Assembly: GCA_030386875.1 (NCBI GenBank)
Contig: CM059560.1
Coordinates: 27,088,183-27,152,182 of the forward strand
DNA from: Morinoia aosen
Taxonomy: Eukaryota > Arthropoda > Malacostraca > Amphipoda > Talitridae
Direction: 5' to 3'
Length of the DNA: 64,000 bases
How positions within the stretch are numbered: the first letter of the stretch is position 1; each line of letters opens with the position of its first letter. The notes beneath the pieces are model-generated. The model was not told where the DNA came from. It worked only from the letters and a program-made list of their open reading frames with translations, and did not search any database. Shown here in pieces: positions 24,086 to 59,318 of this stretch. A program made the position numbers and the translations under genes.

Positions 24086-24218
24086 TAGTGTAATATTCGA
24101 AAATTTTCAGCCCTGAAGTTATCGACTATAGTTGCATGATATGCTCGATGGTTATAAGAGGGCGGAAATAACGTGAGTGGTGCCAAGCACCACCATTACA
24201 AGCCACATGAGTGGTGCC

Positions 24219-27200: not shown

Positions 27201-27754
27201 GAGTGGTGCCAAGCACCACCATTACAAGCCACGTGAGTGGTGCCAAGCACCACCATTACAAGCCACGTGAGTGGTGCCAAGCACCACCATTACAAGCCAC
27301 GTGAGTGGTGCCAAGCACCACCATTACAAGCCACGTGAGTGGTACCGAGCACCACCATTACAAGCCACATAAGTGGTGCCGAGCACCACCATTACAAGCC
27401 ACGTGAGTGGTACCGAGCATCCCCATTACAAGCCACATGAGTGGTGCCGAGCACCACCATTACAAGCCACGTGAGTGGTGCCGAGCACCACCATTACAAG
27501 CCACGTGAGTGGTGCCGAGCATCCCCATTACAAGCCACATGAGTGGTGCCGAGCACCACCATTACAAGCCACATGAGTGGTGCCGAGCACCACCATTACA
27601 AGCCACGTGAGTGGTACCGAGCATCACAATTACAAGCCACGTGAGTGGTACCGAGCATCCCCATTACAAGCCACATGAGTGGTGCCGAGCACCACCATTA
27701 CAAGCCACGTGAGTGGTGCCGAGCACCACCATTACAAGCCACATGAGTGGTGCC
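24219..27754. repeat. Higher-order repeat, copy 1 (3,536 bp, 104 monomers)
   Basis: Private variants recur exactly 3,536 bp downstream: the AAGCCCC unit (25511 and 29047), the GAGTTTTG unit (26895 and 30431) and the TGACAAGC unit (27071 and 30607). The order of CACGTG/CACATG and CCAAG/CCGAG states also matches at every point I compared. I found one difference (T at 26824, C at 30360). The match ends at 27755 against 31291. Confidence 0.92.
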
Positions 27755-30700
27755 AAGCACCACCATTACAAGCCACGTGAGTGGTGCCAAGCACCACCAT
27801 TACAAGCCACATGAGTGGTGCCAAGCACCACCATTACAAGCCACGTGAGTGGTGCCAAGCACCACCATTACAAGCCACGTGAGTGGTGCCAAGCACCACC
27901 ATTACAAGCCACGTGAGTGGTGCCGAGCACCACCATTACAAGCCACGTGAGTGGTGCCAAGCACCACCATTACAAGCCACGTGAGTGGTGCCAAGCACCA
28001 CCATTACAAGCCACGTGAGTGGTGCCGAGCACCACCATTACAAGCCACGTGAGTGGTGCCAAGCACCACCATTACAAGCCACGTGAGTGGTGCCAAGCAC
28101 CACCATTACAAGCCACATGAGTGGTGCCAAGCACCACCATTACAAGCCACGTGAGTGGTGCCAAGCACCACCATTACAAGCCACATGAGTGGTGCCAAGC
28201 ACCACCATTACAAGCCACGTGAGTGGTGCCAAGCACCACCATTACAAGCCACGTGAGTGGTGCCGAGCACCACCATTACAAGCCACGTGAGTGGTGCCGA
28301 GCACCACCATTACAAGCCACGTGAGTGGTGCCAAGCACCACCATTACAAGCCACGTGAGTGGTGCCGAGCACCACCATTACAAGCCACGTGAGTGGTGCC
28401 AAGCACCACCATTACAAGCCACGTGAGTGGTGCCAAGCACCACCATTACAAGCCACGTGAGTGGTGCCAAGCACCACCATTACAAGCCACGTGAGTGGTG
28501 CCAAGCACCACCATTACAAGCCACATGAGTGGTGCCAAGCACCACCATTACAAGCCACGTGAGTGGTGCCAAGCACCACCATTACAAGCCACGTGAGTGG
28601 TGCCAAGCACCACCATTACAAGCCACGTGAGTGGTGCCAAGCACCACCATTACAAGCCACGTGAGTGGTGCCAAGCACCACCATTACAAGCCACGTGAGT
28701 GGTGCCAAGCACCACCATTACAAGCCACATGAGTGGTGCCAAGCACCACCATTACAAGCCACGTGAGTGGTGCCAAGCACCACCATTACAAGCCACGTGA
28801 GTGGTGCCAAGCACCACCATTACAAGCCACGTGAGTGGTGCCAAGCACCACCATTACAAGCCACATGAGTGGTGCCAAGCACCACCATTACAAGCCACGT
28901 GAGTGGTGCCAAGCACCACCATTACAAGCCACGTGAGTGGTGCCAAGCACCACCATTACAAGCCACATGAGTGGTGCCAAGCACCACCATTACAAGCCAC
29001 ATGAGTGGTGCCAAGCACCACCATTACAAGCCACGTGAGTGGTGCCAAGCCCCACCATTACAAGCCACGTGAGTGGTGCCAAGCACCACCATTACAAGCC
29101 ACGTGAGTGGTGCCAAGCACCACCATTACAAGCCACATGAGTGGTGCCAAGCACCACCATTACAAGCCACATGAGTGGTGCCAAGCACCACCATTACAAG
29201 CCACGTGAGTGGTGCCAAGCACCACCATTACAAGCCACGTGAGTGGTGCCAAGCACCACCATTACAAGCCACGTGAGTGGTGCCGAGCACCACCATTACA
29301 AGCCACGTGAGTGGTGCCAAGCACCACCATTACAAGCCACGTGAGTGGTGCCAAGCACCACCATTACAAGCCACATGAGTGGTGCCAAGCACCACCATTA
29401 CAAGCCACGTGAGTGGTGCCAAGCACCACCATTACAAGCCACGTGAGTGGTGCCGAGCACCACCATTACAAGCCACGTGAGTGGTGCCAAGCACCACCAT
29501 TACAAGCCACGTGAGTGGTGCCGAGCACCACCATTACAAGCCACGTGAGTGGTGCCAAGCACCACCATTACAAGCCACATGAGTGGTGCCAAGCACCACC
29601 ATTACAAGCCACATGAGTGGTGCCAAGCACCACCATTACAAGCCACATGAGTGGTGCCAAGCACCACCATTACAAGCCACGTGAGTGGTGCCAAGCACCA
29701 CCATTACAAGCCACGTGAGTGGTGCCAAGCACCACCATTACAAGCCACGTGAGTGGTGCCGAGCACCACCATTACAAGCCACGTGAGTGGTGCCAAGCAC
29801 CACCATTACAAGCCACGTGAGTGGTGCCAAGCACCACCATTACAAGCCACGTGAGTGGTGCCGAGCACCACCATTACAAGCCACGTGAGTGGTGCCAAGC
29901 ACCACCATTACAAGCCACGTGAGTGGTGCCAAGCACCACCATTACAAGCCACGTGAGTGGTGCCGAGCACCACCATTACAAGCCACGTGAGTGGTGCCAA
30001 GCACCACCATTACAAGCCACGTGAGTGGTGCCAAGCACCACCATTACAAGCCACGTGAGTGGTGCCGAGCACCACCATTACAAGCCACGTGAGTGGTGCC
30101 AAGCACCACCATTACAAGCCACGTGAGTGGTGCCAAGCATCACCATTACAAGCCACGTGAGTGGTGCCAAGCACCACCATTACAAGCCACGTGAGTGGTG
30201 CCAAGCACCACCATTACAAGCCACGTGAGTGGTGCCAAGCACCACCATTACAAGCCACGTGAGTGGTGCCAAGCACCACCATTACAAGCCACGTGAGTGG
30301 TGCCAAGCACCACCATTACAAGCCACGTGAGTGGTGCCAAGCACCACCATTACAAGCCACATGAGTGGTGCCAAGCATCACCATTACAAGCCACGTGAGT
30401 GGTGCCAAGCATCACCATTACAAGCCACGTGAGTTTTGCCAAGCATCACCATTACAAGCCACGTGAGTGGTGCCAAGCATCACCATTACAAGCCACGTGA
30501 GTGGTGCCAAGCATCACCATTACAAGCCACGTGAGTGGTGCCAAGCACCACCATTACAAGCCACGTGAGTGGTGCCAAGCACCACCATTACAAGCCACGT
30601 GAGTGGTGACAAGCACCACCATTACAAGCCACATGAGTGGTGCCGAGCACCACCATTACAAGCCACGTGAGTGGTGCCGAGCACCACCATTACAAGCCAC

Positions 30701-31290
30701 GTGAGTGGTGCCAAGCACCACCATTACAAGCCACATGAGTGGTGCCAAGCACCACCATTACAAGCCACGTGAGTGGTGCCAAGCACCACCATTACAAGCC
30801 ACGTGAGTGGTGCCAAGCACCACCATTACAAGCCACGTGAGTGGTGCCAAGCACCACCATTACAAGCCACGTGAGTGGTACCGAGCACCACCATTACAAG
30901 CCACATAAGTGGTGCCGAGCACCACCATTACAAGCCACGTGAGTGGTACCGAGCATCCCCATTACAAGCCACATGAGTGGTGCCGAGCACCACCATTACA
31001 AGCCACGTGAGTGGTGCCGAGCACCACCATTACAAGCCACGTGAGTGGTGCCGAGCATCCCCATTACAAGCCACATGAGTGGTGCCGAGCACCACCATTA
31101 CAAGCCACATGAGTGGTGCCGAGCACCACCATTACAAGCCACGTGAGTGGTACCGAGCATCACAATTACAAGCCACGTGAGTGGTACCGAGCATCCCCAT
31201 TACAAGCCACATGAGTGGTGCCGAGCACCACCATTACAAGCCACGTGAGTGGTGCCGAGCACCACCATTACAAGCCACATGAGTGGTGCC
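27755..31290. repeat. Higher-order repeat, copy 2 (3,536 bp, 104 monomers)
   Basis: This is an immediate tandem copy of the preceding 3,536-bp block. Its variant pattern reproduces copy 1 from the first monomer onward. After 31290 the array continues with diverged GGTACC-type monomers that have no counterpart at the start of copy 2. Confidence 0.92.
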
Positions 31291-31829
31291 GAGCACCACC
31301 ATTACAAGCCACGTGAGTGGTGCCGAGCATCACAATTACAAGCCACATGAGTGGTGCCGAGCACCACCATTACAAGCCACGTGAGTGGTACCGAGCATCA
31401 CCATTACAAGCCACGTGAGTGGTGCCGAGCACCACCATTACAAGCCACGTGAGTGGTACCGAGCATCACCATTACAAGCCACATGAGTGGTGCCGAGCAC
31501 CACCATTACAAGCCACGTGAGTGGTACCGAGCATCACCATTACAAGCCACGTGAGTGATACCGAGCATCACCATTACAAGCCACATAAGTGGTGCCGAGC
31601 ACCACCATTACAAGCCACGTGAGTGGTACCGAGCATCACCATTACAAGCCACATAAGTGGTGCCGAGCACCACCATTACAAGCCACGTGAGTGGTACCGA
31701 GCATCACCATTACAAGCCACGTGAGTGATACCGAGCATCACCATTACAAGCCACATAAGTGGTGCCGAGCACCACCATTACAAGCCACGTGAGTGGTACC
31801 GAGCATCACAATTACAAGCCACGTGAGTG

Positions 31830-32880
31830 CTGCAGAGTAGCGCTCGACTTCACACCTTTGGGAAGTAGATCTATCCACGAGTGCCATCAAAGCCTTTGTG
31901 TCTAAAATATTTTGTTGAAGATTTGATGATGAATCTGAACGAACGAAAATTTTAATTCTGAGTTGGAATGAAGATGCGTTTTTAAATTCTAACTTGTATG
32001 AAAGAGAAGCCATTCAGCCGCCACGGTTATTATACGCGTACACGAACAGCGCTTCTTGATGTAAATATCCTATAAGCTTGAAAAGTATTCAGCATTTTTT
32101 GTATGATTTTATTTCATTTTTGTGGACATGGGTAAGTCACCATGCGCTCCCGACGGTATTTTGGTCACATAGTTGAGACACCTCTGTTAAAATGATAGTT
32201 ATACTGAACTATGGCAAGGTAGTATATATTGGCGTGCAGGCTGGCTCTGTGCGAACTGATCTCTTAGCCGCCTATCTTGTTATGCATCTAGCCTTTTTTG
32301 TTATGAGTATCGCTGAAAATCACTTCAATTAGGGATAAAACAATAACTTCAGTACAATTATCCAATGATTTATTTACTCTACGAGTATATCAGTGGCGGC
32401 GAAGACAATGCTTTTTCTGCTGTAATATCGCTACTACATACTGTAACGAATTCCCCAGTTGTACCGTATAAAAGAAAAGCTTAACGCTATTTTCCATTCG
32501 GTGTGATGTTCCAGTTTTTGGACAATTTTTTCTAACGACGTTACCAAAATTTTTTTCACGCGTCATGTTTAATTTAGATTAAAATGCGTAAAGGGAATTG
32601 CGCATTACGTGCCAGTTTTAAAGTGAAAAGTTACAACTATACATGGTTCACAGTCATAAAGCAATTTCTACCGAAAATTATTCATCCACCACTTATTCAA
32701 GTGCTAAAAACAAGATGGCATGCATGTAGAGTTCACCTCATTCACAAATGTAATACACAAATTTAGATGTTACTGCGCTCAGCATCGTATTTTCCCAATT
32801 TGTACTCGTATCTTTTGAAATTGAGATACAAACCCGCTTAGAATAACCAACAACTGACGCACTGCTCTATAATTAGCCCG
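31830..32880. other. AT-rich DNA between the two 34-bp arrays
   Basis: Only short frames are present, none recognised. The left edge directly abuts the truncated last monomer of the array. Confidence 0.55.
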
Positions 32881-35794: not shown

Positions 35795-35805
35795 TTACAA
35801 GCTAC

Positions 35806-36864
35806 GTGAGTGGTACCGAGCATCACCATTACAAGCCACGTGAGTGGTACCGAGCATCCCCATTAAAAGCCACGTGAGTGGTACCGAGCATCACCATTAC
35901 AAGCAACGTGAGTGGTACCGAGCATCACCATTACAAGCAACGTGAGTGGTACCGAGCATCCCCATTACAAGCCACGTGAGTGGTACCGAGCATCACCATT
36001 ACAAGCCACGTGAGTGGTACCGAGCATCACCATTACAAGCAACGTGAGTGGTACCGAGCATCCCCATTACAAGCCACGTGAGTGGTACCGAGCATCCCCA
36101 TTACAAGCCACGTGAGTGGTACCGAGCATCCCCATTACAAGCCACGTGAGTGGTACCGAGCATCCCCATTACAAGCCACGTGAGTGGTACCGAGCATCCC
36201 CATTACAAGCCACGTGAGTGGTACCGAGCATCCCCATTAAAAGCCACGTGAGTGGTACCGAGCATCACCATTACAAGCAACGTGAGTGGTACCGAGCATC
36301 ACCATTACAAGCAACGTGAGTGGTACCGAGCATCCCCATTACAAGCCACGTGAGTGGTACCGAGCATCACCATTAAAAGCCACGTGAGTGGTACCGAGCA
36401 TCACCATTACAAGCAACGTGAGTGGTACCGAGCATCCCCATTACAAGCCACGTGAGTGGTACCGAGCATCCCCATTACAAGCCACGTGAGTGGTACCGAG
36501 CATCCCCATTACAAGCCACGTGAGTGGTACCGAGCATCCCCATTACAAGCCACTTGAGTGGTACCGAGCATCACCATTACAAGATACTTGAGTGGTACCG
36601 AGCATCACCATTACAAGCCACGTGAGTGGTACCGATCATCACCATTACAAGCAACGTGAGTGGTACCGAGCATCCCCATTACAAGCCACGTGAGAGGTAC
36701 CGAGCATCACCATTACAAGCCACGTGAGTGGTACCGAGCATCACCATTACAAGCAACGTGAGTGGTACCGAGCATCCCCATTACAAGCAACGTGAGTGGT
36801 ACCGAGCATCCCCATTACAAGCCACGTGAGTGGTACCGAGCATCCCCATTACAAGCCACGTGAG
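35806..36864. repeat. Second 34-bp array, 31 copies, GGTACC variant
   Basis: This array has the same 34-bp frame and orientation as the large one. The unit is GTGAGTGGTACCGAGCATC, then (A or C)CCATTACAAGC(C or A)AC. First and last GTGAG are 31 x 34 bp apart, again without net indel. The monomers match the variant type at the right edge of the large array. Each has a GGTACC palindrome but has lost the GTGGTGC/GCACCAC hairpin, and units with AACGTG lack the CACGTG site. Confidence 0.96.
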
Positions 36865-38217
36865 TACGATTACGATTGTTAATGAATGTATGATTTATGG
36901 TGCCCTCGAGACAGGTTTTGTAATTCTTATATAGTAGATTATGCAGGTTTTTCTTAGTCGCATAATATCGAGTCTTTTCTCCGCTTTGTTTTTTCCACGG
37001 AGCGAGAGCACGGCATCACACTATGGACAAAACAGACCCGGGCTCGATACGAAGTTCCGGTGCCCGGGGGATTTTCACCACAGCTAAAACAGCTCCTCTG
37101 ATGATTATAGAAAACAAAGAAGTCACGCAGAATAAGTCATATGAAGAACTTCCTCACTTATCGAGCTGCACTGCAGAACCTTTGAGTGATTTAGCAGGAA
37201 AACATTCGTATAGTACGACAATAATATTGGAGGTATCAAGAAGGAAAAGCTGTTTCTTTTTCTTATATACTGATATCTATAGGCTTTGCTTGAGCAACTT
37301 TCTCATCATTCGGCAGTTAATATCGGATCACAGCTGATTTACTTGCTCAGGAATTATTCTCAAAATTTTCATCGCCTTGAAATTTTCACGAAACGCGGTG
37401 GAGATTTTCTCACTCTGAGGCAACTTTTGTATCATCTGATTGAATAATTGCAATTTTTTATAAACCACTTTTCACCTCCCTTTCTGTTCAGAGCATTGAA
37501 AAATGTAACTCCGGGTTAAGACATTCTTATGCATTCATTTGCATATCAAAACAAAGTTTGAATACAATTATTTCAAGATAAAAATACCTATATTTGTATT
37601 TATTAGTAATGAAACTATGATTTTGCATTTTCATTCTGAAGTAAAACCTTCTAACAAAGCCGAAATCACACCGCCACGTTTTGTTGCTTATGTTCCTATA
37701 TAGTATATGCTCAATTGGAGCCCACCAATAAGTCCCAAAAAACTCTTTTAAATAGATTATGACTCACGGCGATCTGTTCCAATACGATTAGGTTCCTGGA
37801 GTTTTTGTAGCATTGTATTATATTAAACTCCTTGGCATCAGTAAATTGGAAGTACTAATAATTTCAACCTAGTTCACGATATATGCTATAACTGTATAGT
37901 AATTCATTGCTCCGAATTCTTTTATTCCGTGTATTTTTTCTCCTGGCTTAGGAACGTTTACGGATGACTGTGTGTCGCATTTTGGCATATTATCACTTAA
38001 ATATCTATGTACCAGTATGATTGGTGAAACAAGTACACTTGGAACCACTATTTATGATACATGACCATATAATATGTGTGAGACATAAGAATACACTCTG
38101 TATGATACATAATAATACCCTATGTATGATACATAATAATAATACACGATAAATCATGTATTAGAAATTACTACCTATCATATACATGAAAACACTACGT
38201 GGGATACGTATAAGTAG
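36865..38217. other. AT-rich DNA; decayed ATGATACATAATA repeats near 38040-38160
   Basis: A plus frame at 37023-37337 (104 codons) has no recognisable domain and is probably chance. Between about 38040 and 38160 the words TGTATGATACATAATAATA recur at 24-25 bp spacing, a short degraded tandem repeat. Confidence 0.5.
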
Positions 38218-41047: not shown

Positions 41048-41760
41048 TTGGGGTGACTGAACCCAACCTTGGTGGTGGGGTGACTGAACCCAACCAGGGT
41101 GGTGGGGTGACTGAACCCAACCTTGGTGGTGGGGTGACTGAACCCAACATTGGTGGTGGGGTGACTGAAGCCAACCAGGGTGGTGGGGTGAGTCGGTGAC
41201 TGAACCCAACCATGGTGGTGGGGTGATTGAACCCAACCTTGGTGGTGGGGTAACTGAACCCAACCATGGTGGTGGACTGAACCCAACCTTGGTGGTGAGG
41301 TGATTGAATCCAACCTTGGTGGTGGGGTGACTGAACCCAACCATGGTGGTGGGGTGACTATACCCAACCTTGGTGGTGGGGTGACTGAACCCAACCATGG
41401 TGGTGGGGTGACTGAACGCAACCATGGTGGTGGGATGATTGAACCCAACCATAGTGGTGAGGTGACTGAACCCAACCTTGGTGGTGGGGTGACTGAACCC
41501 AACCATGGTGGTGGGGTGATTGAACCCAACCTTGGTGGTGGGGTAACTGAACCCAACCATGGTGGTGGACTGAACCCAACCTTGGTGGTGGGGTGATTGA
41601 ATCCAACCTTGGTGGTGGGGTGACTGAACGCAACCTTGGTGGTGGGGTGACTGAACCCAACCATAGTGGTGAGGTGACTGAACCCAACCTTGGTGGTGGG
41701 GTGACTGAACCCAACCTTGGTGGTGGGGTGACTGAACCCAACCTTGGTGGTGGGGTGACT
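41048..41760. repeat. 27-bp minisatellite, about 26 copies
   Basis: The unit is GGTGACTGAACCCAACC plus TTGGTGGTGG, with variants CAT/CTT and ACT/ATT. Two shortened units (near 41270 and 41565) lie 11 monomers apart and show a higher-order duplication. As 27 is nine codons, frames stay open on both strands. The longest is 297 codons on the minus strand (40771-41664), where the array part is a nine-residue repeat (VGFSHPTTK type). These are by-products of unit length. Confidence 0.96.
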
Positions 41761-41785: not shown

Positions 41786-41893
41786 ACTATACCATTTACA
41801 AGTTGATTTGCTCCAAATGAATTTTGATTTGCTCCTCGTGAAAATAGAATTGCTCCAATTGAAATTTGATTTGCTCTTTTTTCAATTTTAAAC
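41786..41893 (-). repeat. Left inverted arm: ~2 units of the 42-bp repeat
   Basis: The complement reads GAGCAAATC...TTGGAGCAATTC...CACGAGGAGCAAATC...CATTTGGAGC, then AAATCAACTTGTAAATGG. It matches the last units and border of the right arm (52280-52364), with one mismatch in the last 34 bases compared. Confidence 0.85.
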
Positions 41894-42285
41894 ATTACAT
41901 AAGTATTCTACTGGCTTTATAATGTTATTTGAAAGAATCTTAGCGAAATTTATTTTTTCTTTGTAAAGTAATTTTATTCCAATAATGCGTACAAAGATAC
42001 AGAGTTTTTGTTGCGTACAATTTACAAAAAAAATACAGAATATAACTTTCGTTGTATGAACCATCACTCATTATCAAACCATTAGACAAAGGAGTCGTAC
42101 CTCAGACACTTTGATCAAAGAAGCATCACAGAGATACTGCCACGTTGCACACTGCTGCACATCACGTCGCACCTTGTGTAGACATGCTAACGTCATCAGC
42201 AATAAATGTCCACCTCAACTCCAAACATCTTCATCCGTCAGAAACCAAAACCTTCTATGTAGATGAAGTATAATAAAACAAGTGC

Positions 42286-42567
42286 GTGAGACAGACAGAG
42301 AATAATAGAAGCCCTCAATATTAAAGAGGACTATAAGAATGTTGCAAACGCACTTGGAATAAATGTTAAGACTGCATACAGTTTGATGTAAAATAAGTAA
42401 GTCATATCTAAGAAGAAAAGAAGAAATAATATAAGAAATGTCCCGAAATATTGAGGACACTGACAACAGCCATAGAAGAAGAAAATGCTTCGATTACTCT
42501 CTCACAACTTCGCAGAAAAGCACAACAAGATCATGACGTTGATCGAAGAGATCTTATAGAAATATGT
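42286..42567 (+). pseudogene. DDE transposase N-terminal relic (IS630/Tc1/mariner-like)
   Basis: Two plus-frame pieces are seen. The first reads RIIEALNIKEDYKNVANALG then INVKTAYSLM, a helix-turn-helix typical of the DNA-binding N-terminus of IS630/Tc1/mariner-type transposases (pattern ..EDY..vA..LGi...TAysi). The second, in another frame, reads EILRTLTTAIEEENASITLS then QLRRK, matching the linker helix pair that follows in such proteins. Stops flank the first piece and a frameshift lies between. The catalytic domain is missing, cut off where the LINE block begins. It lies in the loop of the foldback-like element, so it could be a remnant of that element's own transposase or an unrelated insertion. 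Confidence 0.6.
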
Positions 42568-42940
42568 CCCTTCAAGGGGATACAGCTATTGTATCTATGG
42601 GAATTAGCGCTCCCAGGGGAACCATGTGAGGGCCCGAGCTAAAGGTTAGGTAGGCTTCCTTTTTGTTGTAATAAAATAGGTTTTTGTTTTGTTACGGACC
42701 ATCTTTTTTCGGTTCAATGCTATCCTGTTTTTCAGCACCTACTACTTTCTTCTTCAACTTTTTTCTTGTTTCATGAACTTCTTTCCTAGCTTACTGTTTC
42801 TGTGCACCTTGTGCATAGATTCCGCGTTCCCTCAACTCCATACTAAATGGTGCCTTCCTCTTTCCTCTCTTAGAACATCTTTGTCGTGGTTAAGCGAGGC
42901 CAAAACTTTCTTATATAATAATAATAATAATAATAAAATA
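42568..42940 (+). mobile_element. LINE 3' end (family copy 3)
   Basis: From 42607 on, this block is nearly identical to 38231-38555, with the coding tail ALPGEPCEGPS and stop at 42640-42642, the same 3' UTR and a longer TAA-repeat tail. A possible imperfect target duplication is ATAGAAATATGT (42556-42567) against ATGGAAATATGT (42941-42952). If that is right, this copy extends 39 bp further 5' than copy 2, the variable 5' truncation typical of LINEs. The insertion sits at the broken end of the transposase relic. Confidence 0.75.
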
Positions 42941-42952
42941 ATGGAAATATGT

Positions 42953-43610
42953 TAATGAGGAAATAATTATAAAAACTTGTGCAAACGTTGTAATATATGC
43001 TTTACATTTCATTTTGTGATGTTTAGTTACGACGTTTCAGCAGTATTATTCTTTCGATAACATTACTGTACTTCTTCATCAAAATGCATTTGTACACGAG
43101 TTATCAGAAAATATATATTTGTTATATATTTTATTTTCAAACCCTTTCTATCAATTTATTGTCCAATTCCGCTAGGGATTGCGACCTAAATATGTTTAAT
43201 GAGGATAATAATAATAATGGTTGATTTGATAGGGTGTTATCTACCGGATGATCGTCGGTAAGAAATAACCCTTGGGTAATTGCTTATAGGGTTCCTTTGC
43301 TTATATGCCTTTTACTGATAGGGTAAATAATTAAAAAAGTAATCAATGAATTAGGATTTTTGCAAAATTGATTGAAAGGTAATTAATTATTAATTAACAT
43401 TAAATAAAATTTAAATAGTTACTAGTTAATATTAATTAACCATGAGAGCACAGATTTGGCAATCAAGAAAGGTTCAGACCAAGGTTCAACCCTGTGGTTA
43501 GGGTAATATATAGTATTTTATATATTTTAAATGCACAAGCTGAAAAAAATATTACGTAATTTTGCTATTGTAACCATAAAAAACTTAAAATTATTTGGAT
43601 CGATAGCAAA
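42953..43610. other. Very AT-rich loop sequence
   Basis: TTAATTAA-type words dominate and there is no open frame of note. It is the inner part of the foldback-like element's loop, next to the right arm. Confidence 0.55.
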
Positions 43611-43618
43611 TTGACAAA

Positions 43619-45662
43619 GAGCAAATCAAATTTCACTTGGAGCAATTCTATTTTCACGAGGAGCAAATAAAAATTCACTTAGATCAATTCTATTTTCACG
43701 AGGAGCAAATCAAAATTCACTTGGAGCAATTCTATTTTCACGAGGAGCAAATCAAAATTCACTTGGAGCAATTCTATTTTCACGAGGAGCAAATCAAATT
43801 TCACTTGGAGCAATTCTATTTTCACGAAGAGCAAATCAAAATTCACTTGGAGCAATTCTATTTTCACGAGGAGCAAATCAAATTTCATTTGGAACAATTC
43901 TATTTTCACGAAGAGCAAATCAAAATTCACTTAGATCAATTCTTTTTGCACGAGGAGCAAAACAAAATTCACTTGGAGCAATTCTATTTTCACGAGGAGC
44001 AAATCAAAATTCACTTGGAGCAATTCTATTTTCACGAAGAGCAAATATAAATTCACTTAGATCAATTCTATTTTCACGAGGAGCAAATCAAAATTCACTT
44101 GGAGCAATTCTATTTTCACGAGGAGCAAATCAAAATTCACTTGGAGCAATTCTATTTTCACGAGGAGCAAATCAAATTTCACTTGGAGCAATTCTATTTT
44201 CACGAAGAGCAAATCAAAATTCACTTGGAGCAATTCTATTTTCACGAGGAGCAAATCAAATTTCACTTGGAACAATTCTATTTTCACGAAGAGCAAATCA
44301 AAATTCACTTAGATCAATTCTTTTTGCACGAGGAGCAAAACAAAATTCACTTGGAGCAATTCTATTTTCACGAGGAGCAAATCAAAATTCACTTGGAGCA
44401 ATTCTATTTTCACGAGGAACAAATCAAAATTCATTTGTTGCAATTCTATTTTCACGAAGAGCAAATCAAAATTCACTTGGAGCAATTCTATTTTCACGAG
44501 GAGCAAATCAAATTTCACTTGGAGCAATTCTATTTTCACGAAGAGCAAATCAAAATTCACTTGGAGCAATTCTATTTTCACGAGGAGCAAATCAAATTTC
44601 ACTTGGAGCAGTTCTATTTTCACGAAGAGCAAATCAAAATTCACTTGGATCAATTCTATTTTTACGAGGAGCAAATCAAAATTCACTTGGAGCAATTCTA
44701 TTTTCACGAGGAGCAAATCAAAATTCACTTGGAGCAAATCTATTTCACGAGGAGCAAATCAAAATTCATTTGGAGCAATTCTATTTTCACGAAGAGCAAA
44801 TCAAAATTCACTTGGAGCAATTATATTTTCACGAGGAGCAAATCAAATTTCAATTGGAACAATTCTATTTTCACGAAGAGCAAATCAAAATTCACTTGGA
44901 TCAATTCTATTTTCACGAGGAGCAAATCAAAATTCACTTGGAGCAATTCTATTTTCACGAGGAGCAAATCAAAATTCATTTGTTGCAATTCTATTTTCAC
45001 GAAGAGCAAATCAAAATTCACTTGGAGCAATTTTATTTTCACGAGGAGCAAATCAAATTTCACTTGGAGCAATTCTATTTTCACGAAGAGCAAATCAAAA
45101 TTCACTTGGAGCAATTCTATTTTCACGAGGAGCAAATCAAATTTCACTTGGAGCAGTTCTATTTTCACGAAGAGCAAATCAAAATTCACTTGGATCAATT
45201 CTATTTTTACGAGGAGCAAGTCAAAATTCACTTGGAGCAATTCTATTTTCACGAGGAGCAAATCAAAATTCACTTGGAGCAAATCTATTTCACGAGGAGC
45301 AAATCAAAATTCATTTGGAGCAATTCTATTTTCACGAAGAGCAAATCAAAATTCACTTGGAGCAATTATATTTTCACGAGGAGCAAATCAAATTTCACTT
45401 GGAGCAATTCTATTTTCACGAAGAGCAAATCAAAATTCACTTGGATCAATTCTATTTTCACGAGGAGCAAATCAAAATTCACTTGGAGCAATTCTATTTT
45501 CACGAGGAGCAAATCAAAATTCACTTGGAGCAGTTCTATTTTCACGAGGAGCAAATCAAAATTCACTTGGAGCAATTCTATTTTCACGAGGAGCAAATCA
45601 AAATTCACTTGGAGCAATTCTATTTTCACGAGGAGCAAATCAAATTTCACTTGGAGCAGTTC
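43619..45662 (+). repeat. 42-bp minisatellite, right arm part 1, ~49 units
   Basis: The unit consists of two related 21-mers: GAGCAAATCAAAATTCACTT(G) and GAGCAATTCTATTTTCACGA(G), identical at 15 of 21 positions. A 378-bp (9-unit) block recurs (marker CAATTCTTTTTGCACG at about 43937 and 44315), as does a 545-bp block (marker GGATCAATTCTATTTTTACG at 44647 and 45192). Since 42 is 14 codons, one plus frame stays open for 560 codons (44099-45781) as a repeat of FYFHEEQIKIHLEQ. The minus strand is open as LLVKIELLQVNFDL. I regard both as by-products. Confidence 0.97.
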
Positions 45663-46798
45663 TGTTATGGAGCCTTTTCTTGTGTCACTCTTTTATTCTC
45701 TTTTCATCTTTTTCGTATAAATGGCTCTCTTTTGATGGGCGTGATTTATTAATCACTTTCTTTTATTTTAGGTTAACGTAGATAAAGTGGGACCTTTCAA
45801 TGTCCAAAAATTTAATTAGTGAGCAAGTATCGAATTAATGTGAATGGTAGAAATTGATAAAATTTGGTAGCGTGGAGTATCTAGCGTGGAATACCTCTCT
45901 ACAGATCATGATAACTCATCTTCCTAACCATCAGGAAATTATACACAATCGCACATCGACATTTATTCCCTAATCTCGCCACAAAAGATTATCATTCTAG
46001 AGTAAAGAAAGTCTAACGCACTAAATTACACTTCGATTGATATTGAAGACAAAACGTAAGGTATGCTGAAGGCATGACGATATAAATGAATGCTTAAGGC
46101 ATAATACCGATAATCCTACGCCCAGAAGGGAGGTAATGAGGATGTTACCTAAGGGGCTTATGACAGGTGGACTTATCTTAATTACTGATTCCGGAAGATG
46201 GCTATATCGTGTGTATGCGCCTTGACATTTATCAGTTACTTTTATTTAACAGGTATTCGGAATCACTAGTAGTACACATTTCAAAGGAGAAGCAAAGCCT
46301 AGCCCCTAAAGGGCAGGCGCTCAAGGAGCGATACAGTACTCTCTCTTGAGGTGGTCACGGGCATACTGACTCTTGCGCTGGGAGCTGGTAGCTTACATTG
46401 TAATCTAAATACAGATTATTCCTCAATCAAGCGATTATGCACGACTTTAGCGTATCGAATTATATAAGCAAAGGGAAACATTAATTCTCGCTAACCGCAC
46501 AAATGATCTAATTAACATGGGCTATTGAATAATGACAGAAATAACAGTGAAGAATCTCTCTTGTGTCGGTATTCGGCAGCTCCTTCAGTCCGTTGATGTC
46601 TTTGCTTCTTCCGCGATCTCGGAGTCGACGTAGAGGAGATATAAAGGGGAAGAAGAATAACTACTTAGAACGATTCGCGAAGTCCGATAACCGTTTCCCG
46701 AAGCACACGACGTCTCTCCTCGGCTGCTTTGGATCATCCTGAACATATAGAGGCGTCCCTCGTTCTGAAGATCCTTACGTTGTGATAAGATCACAACA
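45663..46798. repeat. Left LTR-like direct repeat
   Basis: 1,136 bp, TGTT...AACA ends, nearly identical to 50366-51501. It contains a short TATA-rich word near 46461 that could be part of a promoter; this is inference only. Confidence 0.88.
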
Positions 46799-49700
46799 AA
46801 ATCTCCCCTTGTTGGCGATGAAGACGATCTCCTGATCGTTGACTTTCTCTACAGCTTTTGCGTGCCGTGGTAGAGGAAAACGTTGATAAGTCGGATCTTT
46901 TCTTTTTTTTATATCCACGCAATCCAGCTGTGATGATTTTTACGGCAGCGATTACTGGATTTGCTCTTCTGACGAGCTCTGAAGCGAAGTCCTCCGACAA
47001 GGCTATGTTCCACGTACGCTTTTGGCAAGCGATGGTCCCCGTAGATGCACAGCGAAGACTTCTCCAGTACGCGGAATATTTCTAGAAAATATTCAATGAA
47101 ATAAAAATTTCATTAAAGGACACGGGACAATTAAAGTCTCGGTCGCCGTGACCATACTTCAGCAGCATCCAATTATGTGGAAGGATAGACATCCTCGCAA
47201 TGCCTGTGTTCAAGAAAGTCATTTTAACCGCGTCTTATCATACACGATCTCCTTCGCGATGGGGTTTTATTTTTGAGTCCTGAAGACTTCTTTTAACAGC
47301 CATGAAGTCACGTCGATGTCGCAAGAAAATCATCAAAGCCTTTGTAGTTGTAGTTCTTATCGTTGTTCATGATGCGCTAGCATACCCCGGAGCTTCGTCG
47401 TAGTCGTGTTCCCTTCCTCTTCTCATCGATGATGTCCATACCCAGATCCCGTGGCTCCAAGTACCCTCGTAGAAAATTTTAAAGCAGTTGGCCCAGTCAG
47501 CTGGCGGACGGTTTTCTTTCGTCGTTTTCCTCGAGGTCGTGCGTCTAGCTCAGGCTGTTCTTGTTGGTGAAGTGTCGCTGAGCGGACCATTTTCTACGAC
47601 GTTTTCTCCGCGCTCGTGCGTTGAACTCGTCGGAGTGTTGTTGTTGTTGTTGTTGCCGCCGCCAATGCCCCGTTGTTGCGTCGCCGCTGCCACGTCCACG
47701 TCCGAGCTATGTCGACCCGTAGCGGGACCACGTGAACGCGACACCTGTCGCGAGTGTGGCGGCTCAGACATCTAGGCAGAGAATGGGGGCTGGTATTGAA
47801 GACGCAGTAGTCCACCCCGTCCGCTCGCAGAGCCCACGGCATCAGCTGAAATTACCGTTATTGTTATTTATCGTTCTTGTTAATTTTATTCATTCCCAGA
47901 CAAGCCACCATCACCTGCAGACATAAGCCCAAACATCTCGTCTCATACCACCCTTCTGTGCTTACAAACAGGACATACATTGAGCTTAAACCTATTTCGG
48001 TACTTCCACTGTTCGCTCATGACGTTAACTCTAAAACATTTCGTAGAGAGGAAAAACAGAATTTCCCTAGTATTACATTCACGTTGAGTGTGTCATATGA
48101 CGAAGAACTTCTGCGATTAGATTAACATCAAGGGTGTTTTTAATCATGATCGAATTTTAAATTGGTTACAAACTCCATTTCCTGATGACGACATAATTCA
48201 TCATTTAATTCACATGACGTTGATATTTGTACTATCACCCGATTTCAGAGAAGTATATTCATGTGCATAAAGCATTATTCATTTATCTTTAAGTCGTGAC
48301 CTGTTAACAAAATTCTTCATATGACAAGTAAATTCAAATTTTTAAATGAATGAAATTATTACGCACTCCCGCTATTATTTATCACATGTTCACAATATTA
48401 CATCAAACTTAAATCATTAAACAATTTATCCTAGGCTCAAAATTATTGAATCTTTCAGCGTAAAAAAATTGTTGCGTAAAGAAGTGATCAAAAGACGGCG
48501 AGTATCCAAGTCTGGTATCGAGCTCGCGAGGTAAAGCATGTTCGTATGACAGTTAGGCCTTTTCTTTGAACGAGAGCGAAGAAGAGAGCAAGCCGAGGGT
48601 CGGAGGATTGGAGAGAGAAGGGGGGTGAATGTGGGGTGATTTGAAACAACAGGGACGTTGAGTTGGCTCTAACTTGAACACACCCTTTCACATCGCGACT
48701 TCCCTCACACGGCCTTGCCTCAACATACATTCCATCACTCCAAAACATCCAGGCAAACGTTCATTACAATTACATGGTTAAAACAATACCTAGGAATTAG
48801 AATTAGACATGGACACCCTAATCAAATGAAATAAATCGTTCTCCGCATAATCATTTCTAATTGAATGAAATTTCACTTCTAGATGAATTCCTTTAAAGTA
48901 GAATATGATTGAATTTCATAAGATAACTTGATGAATTTAATTTAAATCATTCATAAGGTTAGATTTAAGGAAAAGTTTTTAAGTCACCATAATTTCATTA
49001 GAGTTGGTTACGTGAGGCAAAATGATAAACGTTACATCATCAAACCCACAACATTAACGAAATACTATACATTTATCAATACTACGTTCAAGGTAATCCA
49101 CTAGGTTTCTCAGTGCGACGTAATATAACCGTCGAGAAAAAACTGTCGAGCAAGGTAGAATTCATGATACCGTTGAGGTACGAACACTAGAGAGGAAAAT
49201 TGAGAGAATGAGTGACTGAAGTAGAAGGGAGAACTAACTCGCGCAGGCTGTTGGGGAGACATGGAGGGGGAAGTAGAGGTTTGTTTACGAAACAAAATGA
49301 GTCCGGGCACTCGAGAACTACCCTCTACCACACAACTAGCTGGTCTTAGAATTCTCTCACATCTCAACACGCACAATCACGCAACATTCATGATGATCAT
49401 ATGGTTAAAATACATGTTAAAATAACGCATTGAAATTGTGATTTACACACGGACGTCTGAATGAAAAGGTTGCCATAGATTTAGCATCATAATATCTACG
49501 ATATATATGAATTTGAATTTTTAATCATGTAAATAATTCCTGACTAAAAATAAGTTTACTTCTAAAATGAATTTCCTTTTCGTGTAAATATGATTGAACT
49601 TCAAGGAGATGATTTAATGAAGGTCATTTATAAGCCGAATTAGAAGAAAATTTCAATTTATGGTTTAATTTTATAAATGTAAATTTTTTTGTGATACGGA

Positions 49701-50365
49701 GATTCAGGGTTTAAAATGAATAGCACGTTCAGTACAAATCAAACAAAATGATAAAATAGCGTCCGTTTAGAGTCATGAAAGAGAGTTACATGGTAAATTG
49801 GAGAAATTTACACGGTAAATCATAATTTTACATAATTCATTGGAGTGCAGTCATCCTGCATCGTAAATAATTGAATGATTCACGTTGTCAAATTGGCCTT
49901 TAGTAATTGAATGCTCTTGGATCAGAAGGTTAATTCATATTATCATATTCCTCACAATCAAACGATTTGACATATTAAAAGAATTGATACGTAACAATCA
50001 ATGCACACCTACTAATGGTTGTTACATGAAGTAAATTTTAATTAGTTATTAAAATAAAGTTCACACGTAAATGGTGGATTATAAAATGCATTGTAAATGA
50101 TCTCACAGAAATGAAATAGAAAGCAAAATAAACACATAGCAATAATAGGTTCACAGAAATGAATTAGAATTTTATCAAACACATACATGAAATATTAGAT
50201 TATACAAATACCCTAACGTGGAGATGAATTTATCAAGATCTGTTGGAGGTTTATTTAATTTATTTTGTTTTTGTATGCGCGAGCGTTTCGGAGGAAGAGG
50301 GTAAGGGAATTTTAACTCTTATTCAGAAAATAGGAATCAAAATCCACTACCGCTGCTCACCAAAT
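46799..50365. other. Interior of the LTR-type element
   Basis: 3.57 kb without long frames. It contains a TTG-triplet run at about 47635-47655 within a GC-richer part (47500-47780). Two related blocks (about 48470-48990 and 49110-49660) share order and words such as ATATGATTGAA, with CATTCATAAG matching CATTTATAAG, and TATGGTTAAAA against CATGGTTAAAA. They look like an old internal duplication. Confidence 0.6.
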
Positions 50366-51501
50366 TGTTATGGAGCCTTTTCTTGTGTCACTCTTTTATT
50401 CTCTTTTCATCTTTTTCGTATAAATGGCTCTCTTTTGATGGGCGTGATTTATTAATCACTTTCTTTTATTTTAGGTTAACGTAGATAAAGTGGGACCTTT
50501 CAATGTCCAAAAATTTAATTAGTGAGCAAGTATCGAATTAATGTGAATGGTAGAAATTGATAAAATTTGGTAGCGTGGAGTATCTAGCGTGGAATACCTC
50601 TCTACAGATCATGATAACTCATCTTCCTAACCATCAGGAAATTATACACAATCGCACATCGACATTTATTCCCTAATCTCGCCACAAAAGATTATCATTC
50701 TAAAGTAAAGAAAGTCTAACGCACTAAATTACACTTCGATTGATATTGAAGACAAAACGTAAGGTATGCTGAAGGCATGACGATATAAATGAATGCTTAA
50801 GGCATAATACCGATAATCCTACGCCCAGAAGGGAGGTAATGAGGATGTTACCTAAGGGGCTTATGACAGGTGGACTTAACTTAATTACTGATTCCGGAAG
50901 ATGGCTATATCGTGTGTATGCGCCGTGACATTTATCAGTTACTTTTATTTAACAGGTATTCGGAATCACTAGTAGTACACATTTCAAAGGAGAAGCAAAG
51001 CCTAGCCCCTAAAGGGCAGGCGCTCAAGGAGCGATACAGTACTCTCTCTTGAGGTGGTCACGGGCATACTGACTCTTGCGCTGGGAGCTGGTAGCTTACA
51101 TTGTAATCTAAATACAGATTATTCCTCAATCAAGCGATTATGCACGACTTTAGCGTATCGAATTATATAAGCAAAGGGAAACATTAATTCTCGCTAACCG
51201 CACAAATGATCTAATTAACATGGGCTATTGAATAATGACAGAAATAACAGTGAAGAATCTCTCTTGTGTCGGTATTCGGCAGCTCCTTCAGTCCGTTGAT
51301 GTCTTTGCTTCTTCCGCGATCTCGGAGTCGACGTAGAGGAGATATAAAGGGGAAGAAGAATAACTACTTAGAACGATTCGCGAAGTCCGATAACCGTTTC
51401 CCGAAGCACACGACGTCTCTCCTCGGCTGCTTTGGATCATCCTGAACATATAGAGGCGTCCCTCGTTCTGAAGATCCTTACGTTGTGATAAGATCACAAC
51501 A
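50366..51501. repeat. Right LTR-like direct repeat
   Basis: 1,136 bp copy of 45663-46798, followed directly by the duplicated GTTC and the resumed 42-bp array. Confidence 0.88.
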
Positions 51502-52347
51502 GTTCTATTTTCACGAAGAGCAAATCAAAATTCACTTGGATCAATTCTATTTTTTACGAGGAGCAAATCAAAATTCACTTGGAGCAATTCTATTTTCACG
51601 AGGAGCAAATCAAAATTCACTTGGAGCAAATCTATTTCACGAGGAGCAAATCAAAATTCATTTGGAGCAATTCTATTTTCACGAAGAGCAAATCAAAATT
51701 CACTTGGAGCAATTATATTTTCACGAGGAGCAAATCAAATTTCACTTGGAGCAATTCTATTTTCACGAAGAGCAAATCAAAATTCACTTGGATCAATTCT
51801 ATTTTCACGAGGAGCAAATCAAAATTCACTTGGAGCAATTCTATTTTCACGAGGAGCAAATCAAAATTCACTTGGAGCAATTCTATTTTCACGAAGAGCA
51901 TATCAAAATTCACTTGGAGCAATTCTATTTTCACGAGGAGCAAATCAAAATTCACTTGGAGCAATTCTATTTTCACGAGGAGCAAATCAAAATTCACTTG
52001 GAGCAATTCTATTTTCACGAGGAGCAAATCAAAATTCACTTGGAGCAATTCTATTTTCACGAGGAGCAAATCAAAATTCACTTGGAGCAATTCTATTTTC
52101 ACGAGGAGCAAATCAAAATTCACTTGGAGCAATTCTATTTTCACGAGGAGCAAATCAAAATTCACTTGGAGCAATTCTATTTTCACGAGGAGCAAATCAA
52201 AATTCACTTGGAGCAATTTTATTTTCACGAGGAGCAAATCAAAATTCACTTGGAGCAATTCTATTTTCACGAGGAGCAAATCAAAATTCACTTGGAGCAA
52301 TTCTATTTTCACGAGGAGCAAATCAAAATTCATTTGGAGCAAATCAA
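51502..52347 (+). repeat. 42-bp minisatellite, right arm part 2, ~20 units
   Basis: This continues the array interrupted by the LTR-type element. Its first units (GTTCTATTTTCACGAAGAGC, then a GGATC unit) match the same succession at 45150-45230, so the interrupted reading resumes in register. The last ten or so units are almost uniform, and it closes with the arm border ending at 52364. Confidence 0.96.
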
Positions 52348-52364
52348 CTAGTAAATGGTATAGT

Positions 52365-52980
52365 GGCTCTAAAGTGGTGGTAGGGTGACTAGTGAACTAA
52401 ACATATCTGAGTGACTCATGCATGGGACTGATGACTCTATTTCTAGTAATCCTAAAACTCAATTAAAGAAAAGACAACGAGAGTGACGCACGGCATCTGT
52501 CTGAGCACTGGCGCCATGCATGGCCTTACCGCAGGCTACCTGAGCCGACTTCTAACAATCCTGATTAAGCTCAAAACTTTCGCAATAATATTACCGCTCA
52601 AATTTGCACAAAGATATTGCGTTGTACCTTCGACAACAGTATTGCAACCTAAACTTCAGCATCAATATTTCTACAAAACTTCAGTAACAATATTACGACC
52701 GAAACTTCTGCAATATCCCAATAGACATTTTTGAGACATAATTATGCTCTAAAGTTTTCAATTTTGACCAAATACAACTACTTTTTTATTTTAAGCATAA
52801 CAATTATACAATTTTGAAATACATTTCGATTCTTATATAAAGTGACGTGAATCACCCTCGAATTAATCCCGTTTAACTTTAAGAATTACTGCTAACTGCT
52901 GCAGCAGAATTGCACAGTTCGACAGGTGCAACCATGGCATCGGTGTTGCAGCATTGTTGCAACCATGTTGCACCATTTTT
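52365..52980. other. Flank of the element; no gene
   Basis: It begins with a scrap resembling the 27-bp minisatellite (GTGGTAGGGTGACTAGTG at about 52377). Between 52565 and 52710 AAACTTC and AATATT words recur loosely. At 52948-52974 a 27-bp stretch resembles 54426-54452 beyond the next array. Confidence 0.55.
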
Positions 52981-52982
52981 AA

Positions 52983-54402
52983 TGGTGGTTCAGCGATGGC
53001 AACATTTGTGATGGTGGTACAATGCTGGCAAAATTTGTGATGGTGGCACAATGCTGGCAACATTTGTGGTGGTGGTACAATGCTGGCAACATTTGTGGTG
53101 GGGGTATAATGCTGGCGACATTTGTGATGGTGGTACAATGCTGGCGACATTTGTGATGGTGGTACAATGTTGGCAACATTTGTGGTGGGGGTACAATGCT
53201 GGCAACATTTGTGATGATGGTACAATGCTGGCGACATTTGTGATGGTGGTACAATGCTGGCAACATTTGTGGTGGGGGTACAATGCTGGCAACATTTGTG
53301 GTGGGGGTATAATGCCTGCGACATTTGTGATGGTGGTACAATGCTGGCAACATTTGTGATGGTGGTGCAATGCTGGCAACATTTGTGATGGTGGTACAAT
53401 GCTGGCAACATTTGTGATGGTGGTGCAATGCTGGCAACATTTGTGATGGTGGTACAATGCTGGCAACATTTGTGATGGTGGTGCAATGCTGGCAACATTT
53501 GTGATGGTGGTACAATGCTGGCAACATTTGTGATGGTGGTACAATGCTGGCAACATTTGTGATGGTGGTACAATGCTGGCAACATTTGTGATGGTGGTAC
53601 AATGCTGGCAACATTTGTGATGGTGGTACAATGCTGGCAACATTTGTGATGGTGGTGCAATGCTGGCAACATTTGTGATGGTGGTACAATGCTGGCAACA
53701 TTTGTGATGGTGGTACAATGCTGGCAACATTTGTGATGGTGGTGCAATGCTGGCAACATTTGTGATCCATGGTGGTGCAATGCTGGCAACATTTGTGATG
53801 GTGGTACAATGCTGGCAACATTTGTGATGGTGGTGCAATGCTGGCAACATTTGTGATGGTGGTGCAATGCTGGCAACATTTGTGATCCATGGTGGTGCAA
53901 TGCTGGCAACATTTGTGATGGTGGTACAATGCTGGCAACATTTGTGATGGTGGTGCAATGCTGGCAACATTTGTGATGGTGGTGCAATGCTGGCAACATT
54001 TGTGATGGTGGTGCAATGCTGGCAACATTTGTGATGGTGGTACAATGCTGGCTTCATTTGTGATGGTGGTGCAATGCTGGCAACATTTGTGATCCATGGT
54101 GGTGCAATGCTGGCAACATTTGTGATGGTGACACAATGCTGGCAACATTTGTGATGGTGGTACAATGCTGGCAACATTTGTGATGGTGGTACAATGCTGG
54201 CAACATTTGTGATGGTGGTACAATGCTGGCAACATTTGTGATGGTGGTACAATGCTGGCAACATTTGTGATGGTGGTACAATGCTGGCAACATTTGTGAT
54301 GGTGGTACAATGCTGGCAACATTTGTGATGGTGGTACAATGCTGGCAACATTTGTGATGGTGGTACAATGCTGGCAACATTTGTGATGGTGGTACAATGC
54401 TG
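52983..54402. repeat. 29-bp minisatellite, ~49 copies
   Basis: The unit is GGCAACATTTGTGATGG then TGGTACAATGCT (29 bp). Left-side units are more varied (GGGGGTA, GCGACATT), while the centre and right are homogeneous. A TGATCCATGG insertion variant appears three times (about 53762, 53882, 54090). As 29 is not divisible by 3, each minus-strand frame cycles through all phases. None contains a stop, so three minus frames of 378 to 515 codons read the same His- and Cys-rich 29-residue repeat. They are not credible genes. Confidence 0.96.
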
Positions 54403-56504: not shown

Positions 56505-59318
56505 GTTGTTACCACCACACGGGTTGTTACCACCACAGGTGTAGTCAACACACGTAGTGCTATCACCACGAGTGTTGTTACCGCCACGCGTTTTGTTATC
56601 ACTTGTTACCTCTACAGGAATCATCACGACCATCTGCATTGTTGCCATCCCTCATGTTGTCACCACCAACGCTGTCACCATCAGCCGTGTTGTCACCACC
56701 ACCAACGCTGTCACCTCCACCACTGTTGTCACCCTCACCTGTGTTTTCACCACCACCCGTGTTGTCACCACCACCCGTGTTGTCACCACCACCCGTGTTG
56801 TCACCACCACCCGTGTTGTCACCACCACCCGTGTTGTCACCACCAGCCGTGTTGTCACCACCAGCCGTGTTGTCACCACCACCCGTGTTGTCACCACCAC
56901 CCGTGTTGTCACCACCACCAACGCTGTCACCTCCACCACTGTTGTCACCTTCACCTGTGTTTTCACCACCACCCGTGTTGTCACCACCACCCGTGTTGTC
57001 ACCACCAGCCATGTTGTCACCACCACCCATGTTGTCACCACCACCTGTGTTGTCACCACCAGCCATGTTTCCATCTTCCTGTTGTCACCACCAGCCGTGT
57101 TGTCACCACCAGCCGAGTTGTCACCACCAGCCATGTTGTCACCACCAGCCGTGTTGTCACTACCACCCGTGTTGTCACCACCAACCGTGTTGTCACCACC
57201 ACCTGTGTTGTCACCACCAGCCATGTTTCCATCTTCCTGTTGTCACCACCAGCCGTGTTGTCACCACCAGCCGTGTTGTCACCACCAGCCATGTTGTCAC
57301 CACCAGCCGTGTTGTCACCACCAGCCGTGTTGTCACCGCCAGCCATGTTGTCACCACCAGCCGTGTTGTCACTACCACCCGTGTTGTCACCACCAACCGT
57401 GTTGTCACCACCAGCCGTGTTGTTACCACCACCCCTGTTGTCACCACCAGCCGTGTTGTCGCCACCACCCGTGTTGTCACCACCAGCCGTGTTGTCACCA
57501 CCAGCCATGTTGTCACCACCAGCCGTGTTGTCACCACCAGCCATGTTGTCACCACCAGCCGTGTTGTCACTACCACCCGTGTTGTCACCACCACCCGTGT
57601 TGTCACCACCAGCCGTGTTGTCACCACCACCCCTGTTGTCACCACCACCCCTGTTGTCACCACCAGCGGTGTTGTCACCACCACCCGTGTTGTCACCACC
57701 AGCCATGTTGTCACCACCAGCCGTGTTGTCACCACCAGCCATATTGTCACCACCAGCCATGTTGTCACTACCACCCGTGTTGTCACCACCACCTGTGTTG
57801 TCACCACCAGCCGTGTTGTCACCAACACCCGTATTGTCACCACCAGCCCTGTTGTCACCACCAGCCGTGTTGTCACCACCACCTGTGTTGTCACCACCAC
57901 CCGTGTTGTTACCACCACCCGTGTTTTCACCACCACCCGTGTTGTCACCACCACCCGTGTTGTCACCACCACCCGTGTTGTCACCACCACCCGTGTTGTC
58001 ACTACCACCCGTGTTGTCACCACCACCTGTGTTGTTACCACGACCCGTGTTGTCACCACCACCTGTGTTGTCACCACCACCTGTGTTGTTACCACTACCC
58101 GTGTTGTTACCACCACCAGCACTGTCACCACAAGCGCTGTCACCACCAGCGCTGTCACCACCAGAGCTGTCATCACCAGCACTGTCACCACCACCAGCCG
58201 TGTTGTCACCACCACCCGTGTTGTTACCACCACCCGTGTTGTCACCACTACCTGTGTTGTCACCACCACCCGTGTTGTTACCACCACCTGTGTTGTCACC
58301 ACCAGCCGTGTGGTCACCACCACCTGTGTTGTCACCACCACCTGTGTTGTCACCACCAGCCATGTTGTCACCACCACCTGTGTTGTCACCAACACCTGTG
58401 TTGTCACCACCACCCGTGTTGTTACCACCACCTGTGTTGTCACCATCAGCCGTGTTGTCACCACCACCTGTGTTGTCACTATCACCCGTGTTGTTACCAC
58501 CACCCGTGTTGTCACCACCCCCTGTGTTGTCACCACCAGCCGTGTTGTCACCACCAGCCGTGTTATAACCACCAGCCGTGTTGTCACCACCAGCCGTGTT
58601 GTCACCACCACCCGTGTTGTCACCACCACCTGTGTTGTTACCACCACCCGTGTTGTTACAACCACCAGCGCTGTCACCACCAGCGCTGTCACCACCAGCA
58701 CTGTCACCACCACCAGCCCTGTTGTCACCACCAGCCGTGTTTTCACCACCAGCCGTGTTGTCACCACCAGCCGTGTTGTCACCACCACCCGTGTTGTCCC
58801 CACCACCCGTGTTGTCACCACCACCCGTGTTGTCACCACGACCCGTGTTGTTACCACCACCTGTGTTGTCACCACCACCCGTGTTGTCACCACCACCCGT
58901 GTTGTCACCACCACCCGTGTTGTCACCACCACCAGCGCTGTTGTCACCACCAGCCGTGTTGTCACCACCAGCCGTGTTGTCACCACCACCCGTGTTGTCA
59001 CCACCAGCCCTGTTGTCACCACCAGCCGTGTTGTCACCACCAGCCGTGTTGTCACCACCACCCGTGTCGTCACTACCACCCGTGTTGTCACCACCACCCG
59101 TGTTGTCACCACCAGCCGTGTTGTCACCACCACCCGTGTTGTCATCACCACCCGTGTTGTCACCACCACCCGTGTTGTCACCACCACCCGTGTTGTCACC
59201 ACCACCCGTGTTGTCACCACCACCAGTGTTGTCACCACCACCAGTACTGTCACCACCACCAGCACTGTCACCACCACCAGCACTGTCACCACCACCAGCG
59301 CTGTCACCACCACAGTTC
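56505..59318. repeat. 18-bp minisatellite, ~155 copies, open in several frames
   Basis: The unit is GTTGTCACCACCACCCGT (variants CCAGCCGT, CCACCTGT, CCAGCGCT). A 216-bp (12-unit) block recurs (ACGCTGTCACCTCC at 56705 and 56921), and a marker CCATGTTTCCATCTTCC at 57063 and 57221. Because 18 is six codons and the unit lacks stops, all plus frames and at least two minus frames are open for hundreds of codons. The longest runs 56603-59734 (1,043 codons, mostly VVTTTR). Simultaneous openness in frames of unrelated composition (VVTTTR, CCHHHP, VLSPPP, GGGDNT) argues that none is selected as protein. Confidence 0.97.

Follow-up and report, generated by a model that had tools for sequence, protein, structure and literature searches.

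The window analysed here is a stretch of 64,000 nucleotides from contig CM059560.1 of Morinoia aosen. Its positions 41786 to 52364 hold a single foldback-type DNA transposon, which is real and non-autonomous. The hallmark of the foldback structural class, namely long inverted ends composed of tandemly repeated units, is present in this copy and in its relatives. The left border is formed by ACTA (41786-41789), the left half of an ACTAGT target, in which the TA duplication occupies 41788-41789; this assignment relies on empty sites found elsewhere and on the identical border present here. The left arm (41790-41878, plus strand) consists of the terminus TACCATTTAC followed by 4 half-units (2 x 42 bp). 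It is followed by a loop (41879-43612, plus strand) which belongs to a repeated family, as seen from genome matches. The right arm, on the plus strand, is made of an inner part of 42-bp repeats (43613-45662), ending with a GTTC duplication at 45659-45662, and of an outer part (51502-52350) which starts with the second GTTC (51502-51505) and continues with 42-bp repeats. The right terminus GTAAATGGTA (52351-52360, minus strand) is followed by TAGT (52361-52364), which corresponds to the second TA of the duplication and to the right half of ACTAGT.

The initial annotation had assigned the whole of 41786-52364 to the element. The termini stood, but a 5.84-kb LTR retrotransposon lying within the right arm (45663-51501), foreign to the foldback element, had been overlooked. 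The 21-bp half-unit, the TA duplication and the transposase family described below had also escaped it. The two 1136-bp LTRs (45663-46798 and 50366-51501) are 99.7% identical, with 3 mismatches, and the pair is flanked on both sides by GTTC. No open reading frame of 120 or more amino acids in the list established for the window lies wholly inside the retrotransposon. Since 45663-51501 is a separate element, the transposon proper measures about 4.7 kb. One repeated block of the array spans the LTR insertion point, indicating that the LTR element is probably younger than the array.

The arms of the window copy (41786-41876 and 52274-52364) show 97% inverted identity. The outer border proposed to be common to both arms was recovered as 88 inverted-identical positions among the outermost 91 nucleotides, whereas 2000 letter shuffles averaged 26 and never exceeded 41; the inner border AATTGA(A/C)AAAGAGC is likewise legible on both sides. 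The estimate of about 2 units against about 69 also held, as we counted 4 half-units (2 units) on the left and 138 half-units (69 units) on the right, LTR element excluded. Exact matches to the repeat unit number 1079 in the genome, 20 of which lie within the window, and its control was not found. In the scored arms of 24 scanned relatives, half-units were spaced by exactly 21 bp in 559 of 586 cases, the remaining 27 including missed units and the inner border. Fifteen of 19 loop copies could be scored on both sides (L034, L035, L043 and L044 were left out for this reason) and carried 12-30 half-units in the left arm and 8-41 in the right arm; L035, a compound locus, has 38 in a scored arm. 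The window copy falls outside both ranges. Typing of the units of its right array revealed a block, about 16 half-units long, in three near-copies, an arrangement that would fit unequal exchange. The expansion of one arm into a minisatellite, as initially put forward, thus agrees both with this outlying arm length and with the multi-unit blocks of the right array, and in the lopsided window copy an arm of a transposon is seen in transition to a minisatellite.

The exact terminus CTATACCATTTACAAGTTGATTTGC was found 334 times (176 + 158) in the 29 contigs of the assembly (1.99 Gb), and the reversed-pattern control gave no occurrence. Among the first 100 places listed, adjacent termini within 12 kb formed 28 inward-facing pairs, 1.9-4.5 kb apart, no same-direction pair and 3 outward-facing pairs. 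The latter are formed between neighbouring elements. With these opposed pairs, the empty sites described below and a loop that recurs at other loci, the claim of a foldback element is supported; the absence of other loci with opposed borders, which would have refuted it, was not observed. Loop matches extending over the whole query were 87-97% identical (52 matches; 40 scored of 2642 first-look candidates), and the 19 further copies that were fetched aligned across nearly the entire query at 92-97%.

The target site could be read from filled and empty copies of repeated sequences. Two insertions, L045 and L049, occupy one position of a repeated sequence whose uninterrupted copies read CACG-ACTAGT-ATTC; ACTAGT was present in 10 of the 12 uninterrupted copies fetched (L057-L068), and one-base variants in the other two (L061 and L066). 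Filled sites read ACTA-TACC...GGTA-TAGT. Comparison of L048 (filled) with L071 (empty, TATAA-ACTAGT-GTCC) revealed the same TA duplication. Filled and empty sites together indicate that TA is duplicated and that the element spans TACC...GGTA. All border counts were restricted to distinct 20-base flanks. At loci found with the loop only, the border read CTA in 34 of 36 cases, these borders being located with the inner terminus and up to 4 mismatches, compared with 645 of 4041 NNTA as background in the window. In a wider set of 68 borders, found in part with a query containing the border, C occupied that place in 66 cases and was preceded by A or T in all 68.

The presumed original site of the window copy is GGGAACTAGTGGCT, and this copy seems to have inserted within or next to a 27-bp minisatellite. 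As several right flanks are shared, an element extending further to the right was considered. This was rejected, for L071, which carries the L048 flank uninterrupted and with the same left context, reads ACTAGT and so represents a repeated target. ACTAGT is also found in L072 with a different left context, while L070 and L073 read otherwise at this place. A difference in orientation between L045 and L049 was rejected as well: both are inserted in the same sense, and minus-strand matches had been left unturned in the fetched loci. The repeat present in L048 (3831-4100), L069, L071 and L082 (5159 first-look candidates) carries an ACTAGT which was hit at the same base by at least two foldback families. 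A similar flank, beginning with GCACACGTGCTGG in L034 (3858-4157), adjoins the copies in L034, L039, L016, L017, L019 and L020, and is probably another repeated target. The target repeat of L045 is found in five copies at steps of about 30-35 kb on contig C8 (3108480-3239237), perhaps reflecting a large tandem duplication.

We searched the genome for the DDE_3 domain and scored 150 matches, of which at least 13 lie 1.1-2.8 kb from a terminus. Two full copies have both termini and both arms: L079 (3.78 kb, 6 and 18 half-units), in which the transposase is open, and L077 (3.87 kb, 14 and 16 half-units), in which the frame breaks near its end (one stop). Repeats are retained on both sides in L077, L078 and L079. 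The 347-residue protein from L075 (P0001) matched DDE_3 with 71.7 bits (cut-off 28.6, E 7.7e-20) and the IS630 model with 101.6 bits (cut-off 100). Its N-terminal match to HTH_23 (E 0.0004) scored 20.5 against a cut-off of 24.6. In the Pfam search no family other than DDE_3, MULE transposases included, exceeded its cut-off, and THAP was absent among the 6 families listed up to E 1. The second D and the E are separated by 33 residues (DD33E), so that the DD34E spacing of the Tc1 type is not matched. Residues 1-347 are open at 98% identity or more in 11 copies, query copy included (117 scored of 1747 first-look candidates), which suggests recent activity. Judged from these matches, the family of the window copy is a member of the IS630-Tc1-mariner (IS630-like) group, its complete members carrying a transposase of this type. 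Thirteen bacterial or archaeal relatives were obtained among 60 pattern stretches; they are distant (23-49% identity in the best segment), and none of the 60 pointed to a close bacterial source. There was no viral relative among 53 pattern stretches. A sequence search of the PDB gave no transposase among 7 weak matches, and a 33-residue piece gave a single match at E 1. The best DDE_3 matches are concentrated at 60-69 Mb of contig C27, where scores exceed those found elsewhere; another lineage or a different origin of this contig is possible.

The DDE/D transposase of the full copies corresponds in the window copy to a broken frame without catalytic core. The 5' part of this frame (42263-42542, plus strand), with the start, the putative helix-turn-helix region and about the first 92 residues, was identified by alignment to L078 679-1333, then 2085-2327. 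The first 664 bases of the window loop match L078 (88%); a 309-base segment follows (42563-42871, minus strand), after which the loop rejoins L078 at the end of the frame. This segment lies 3' of the transposase in opposite orientation (83%) in the four full copies compared (L075, L077, L078 and L079). Missing from the window loop are 751 bp of the full element, which hold all three catalytic residues. The transposase frames of the other loop copies contain stops. Since the 19 fetched copies align over this same loop, which lost the catalytic core, a single rearranged founder would be the simplest account.

The 21-bp period was found in five families, four of them, with other arm sequences, in addition to that of the window copy; three have transposases only 38-59% identical. 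The L080 and L081 families have open frames of 404 and 392 amino acids, inverted arms of 21-bp units and CTA/TAG borders, and their transposases are 38% identical to that of the first family and 59% to each other. A third family (L082 and L069), also with 21-bp arms, showed no long frame in the portion that was read, and occupies the repeated ACTAGT site in which L048 is inserted. In a fourth, a 21-bp array lies upstream of the transposase of L084 on the one side fetched, and this protein is 61% identical to that of the first family. The distance from the second D to the E is 35 residues in two related families. Alignability of the units between families was mixed: those of L080 and L081, for example, agree at 16 of 21 positions, a value which 2000 shuffles reached at a frequency of 0.0005, while some others could not be aligned. 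As some units can be aligned across families, inheritance and not selection may account for the common 21 bp; within one family, tandem duplication alone suffices for a constant period. Not every DDE_3 family of this genome has such arms, as attested by L083, a DD34E Tc1-type element with plain inverted repeats of about 225 nucleotides, and by L085, for which no 21-bp array was detected in the 1 kb inspected.

These data demonstrate that the inverted arms consist of 42 bp (2 x 21) repeats, that TA is duplicated where the target resembles ACTAGT, and that in full copies an open DDE_3 transposase is enclosed by these same arms. We propose, with a probability of about 85%, that the window copy is a non-autonomous, cut-and-paste foldback element of the IS630-Tc1-mariner group, whose arms would bind the transposase in phase and whose right arm would have been enlarged by unequal exchange. 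Filled and empty sites are an indirect sign of such cut-and-paste mobility. Full copies would supply the transposase in trans. The protein would bind the 21-bp half-units, which, being two helical turns apart, would expose their sites on one face of the DNA; once bound, it would pair both arms, cut beside TA and insert the element into CTAG, at its TA. Changes in repeat number would be tolerated by the arms, so that the right one could have expanded to about 69 units via unequal exchange, and a young LTR retrotransposon would have entered it after this expansion. The most likely role of the arms is that of phased transposase-binding arrays which may also expand by unequal exchange.

The arms could instead be neutral minisatellites carried by a plain Tc1/mariner element, with a 21-bp period devoid of function. 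The wide variation in repeat number, the extreme lopsidedness of the window copy and the alignability of units between some families are in line with this view, as is miDNA4 of Xenopus, a Tc1/mariner MITE with growing tandem repeats (PMC12628747, from the part of that article available to us). Yet the period is common to five families, including three with such divergent transposases, and in L077, L078 and L079 neither side has lost its repeats; we consider neutral arms unlikely. A foldback element of the Mutator or P type, of which FB, Tetris and Galileo are examples, would also have long, internally repetitive inverted arms, and published foldback elements are assigned mostly to Mutator, or to P in the case of Galileo, in the portions of the literature at our disposal. 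Such an affiliation is very improbable here, as the duplication is a 2-bp TA instead of 8-10 bp and the transposase of the full copies matches DDE_3/IS630. Finally, the great length and repetitiveness of one arm might point to an assembly artefact (an inverted contig end) or a chance inverted repeat. The probability of this is close to negligible: many loci share the structure, empty sites are clean and 88 of the 91 outer bases are inverted. The 334 termini and their inward-facing pairs make an inverted contig end unnecessary as an explanation.

The phased-binding reading can be extended, tentatively and at somewhat less than even odds, to an IS630-like clan in which many putative transposase sites phased at two helical turns would form a platform for synapsis. 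The foldback form would be ancestral, the unit sequence would change along with the transposase under a constant 21-bp phase, and individual arms might turn into minisatellites, as in the window copy. The common 21-bp period predicts phased binding, and the presence in one genome of transposase-bearing IS630-Tc1-mariner foldback copies together with deletion derivatives makes the role of the arms directly testable.

The DDE_3 core and the TA duplication are common to the IS630-Tc1-mariner group and to bacterial IS630, from which the present family differs by its eukaryotic host, its DD33E spacing and its long arms of repeat arrays. According to the title of a 1991 paper by Tenzen and Ohtsubo, cited in PMC2170065, IS630 prefers the TA in CTAG. 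Sleeping Beauty and Bari, of the Tc1 type, have two direct repeats per end and a DD34E transposase, compared with 4 to 138 half-units and DD33E here. In these two elements extra binding sites take the form of repeats in the inverted ends (PMC3688188, in the part accessible to us), as is predicted for the present arms. According to the same part of that source, Galileo, of the P superfamily, has long inverted ends of foldback type that contain tandem repeats, as found here, and extra transposase binding sites were shown in these repetitive ends (PMC3688188). Galileo is therefore a precedent for the extra sites predicted in the present arms, but it has a P-type transposase with a THAP domain, in contrast to DDE_3/IS630 and a TA duplication. 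Tetris, a foldback element assigned to Mutator by its authors, has 220-bp repeats and 8-10 bp duplications; no transposase-bearing copy of it was found, in the available part of its description, whereas such copies exist here. The tandem repeats of miDNA4 vary in number and may yield satellite arrays (PMC12628747, available part), so that there is a precedent for the growth of repeats within a Tc1/mariner element. As described there, the array is internal, while in the present family the inverted ends themselves are arrays and full transposase copies exist. No IS630/Tc1-mariner foldback element was found in the literature titles and abstract openings searched; the family may be listed in Repbase or Dfam.

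Other repeats were also observed. TTAGG arrays occur in the genome, which is compatible with an arthropod but is no proof of one. In the window, arrays of similar 34-bp units at 24171-31833 (225 copies) and 35795-36865 (31 copies) lie 4 kb apart, and minisatellites crowd the region, with units of 27 bp (41049-41760), 29 bp (52970-54402) and 18 bp (56655-59313).
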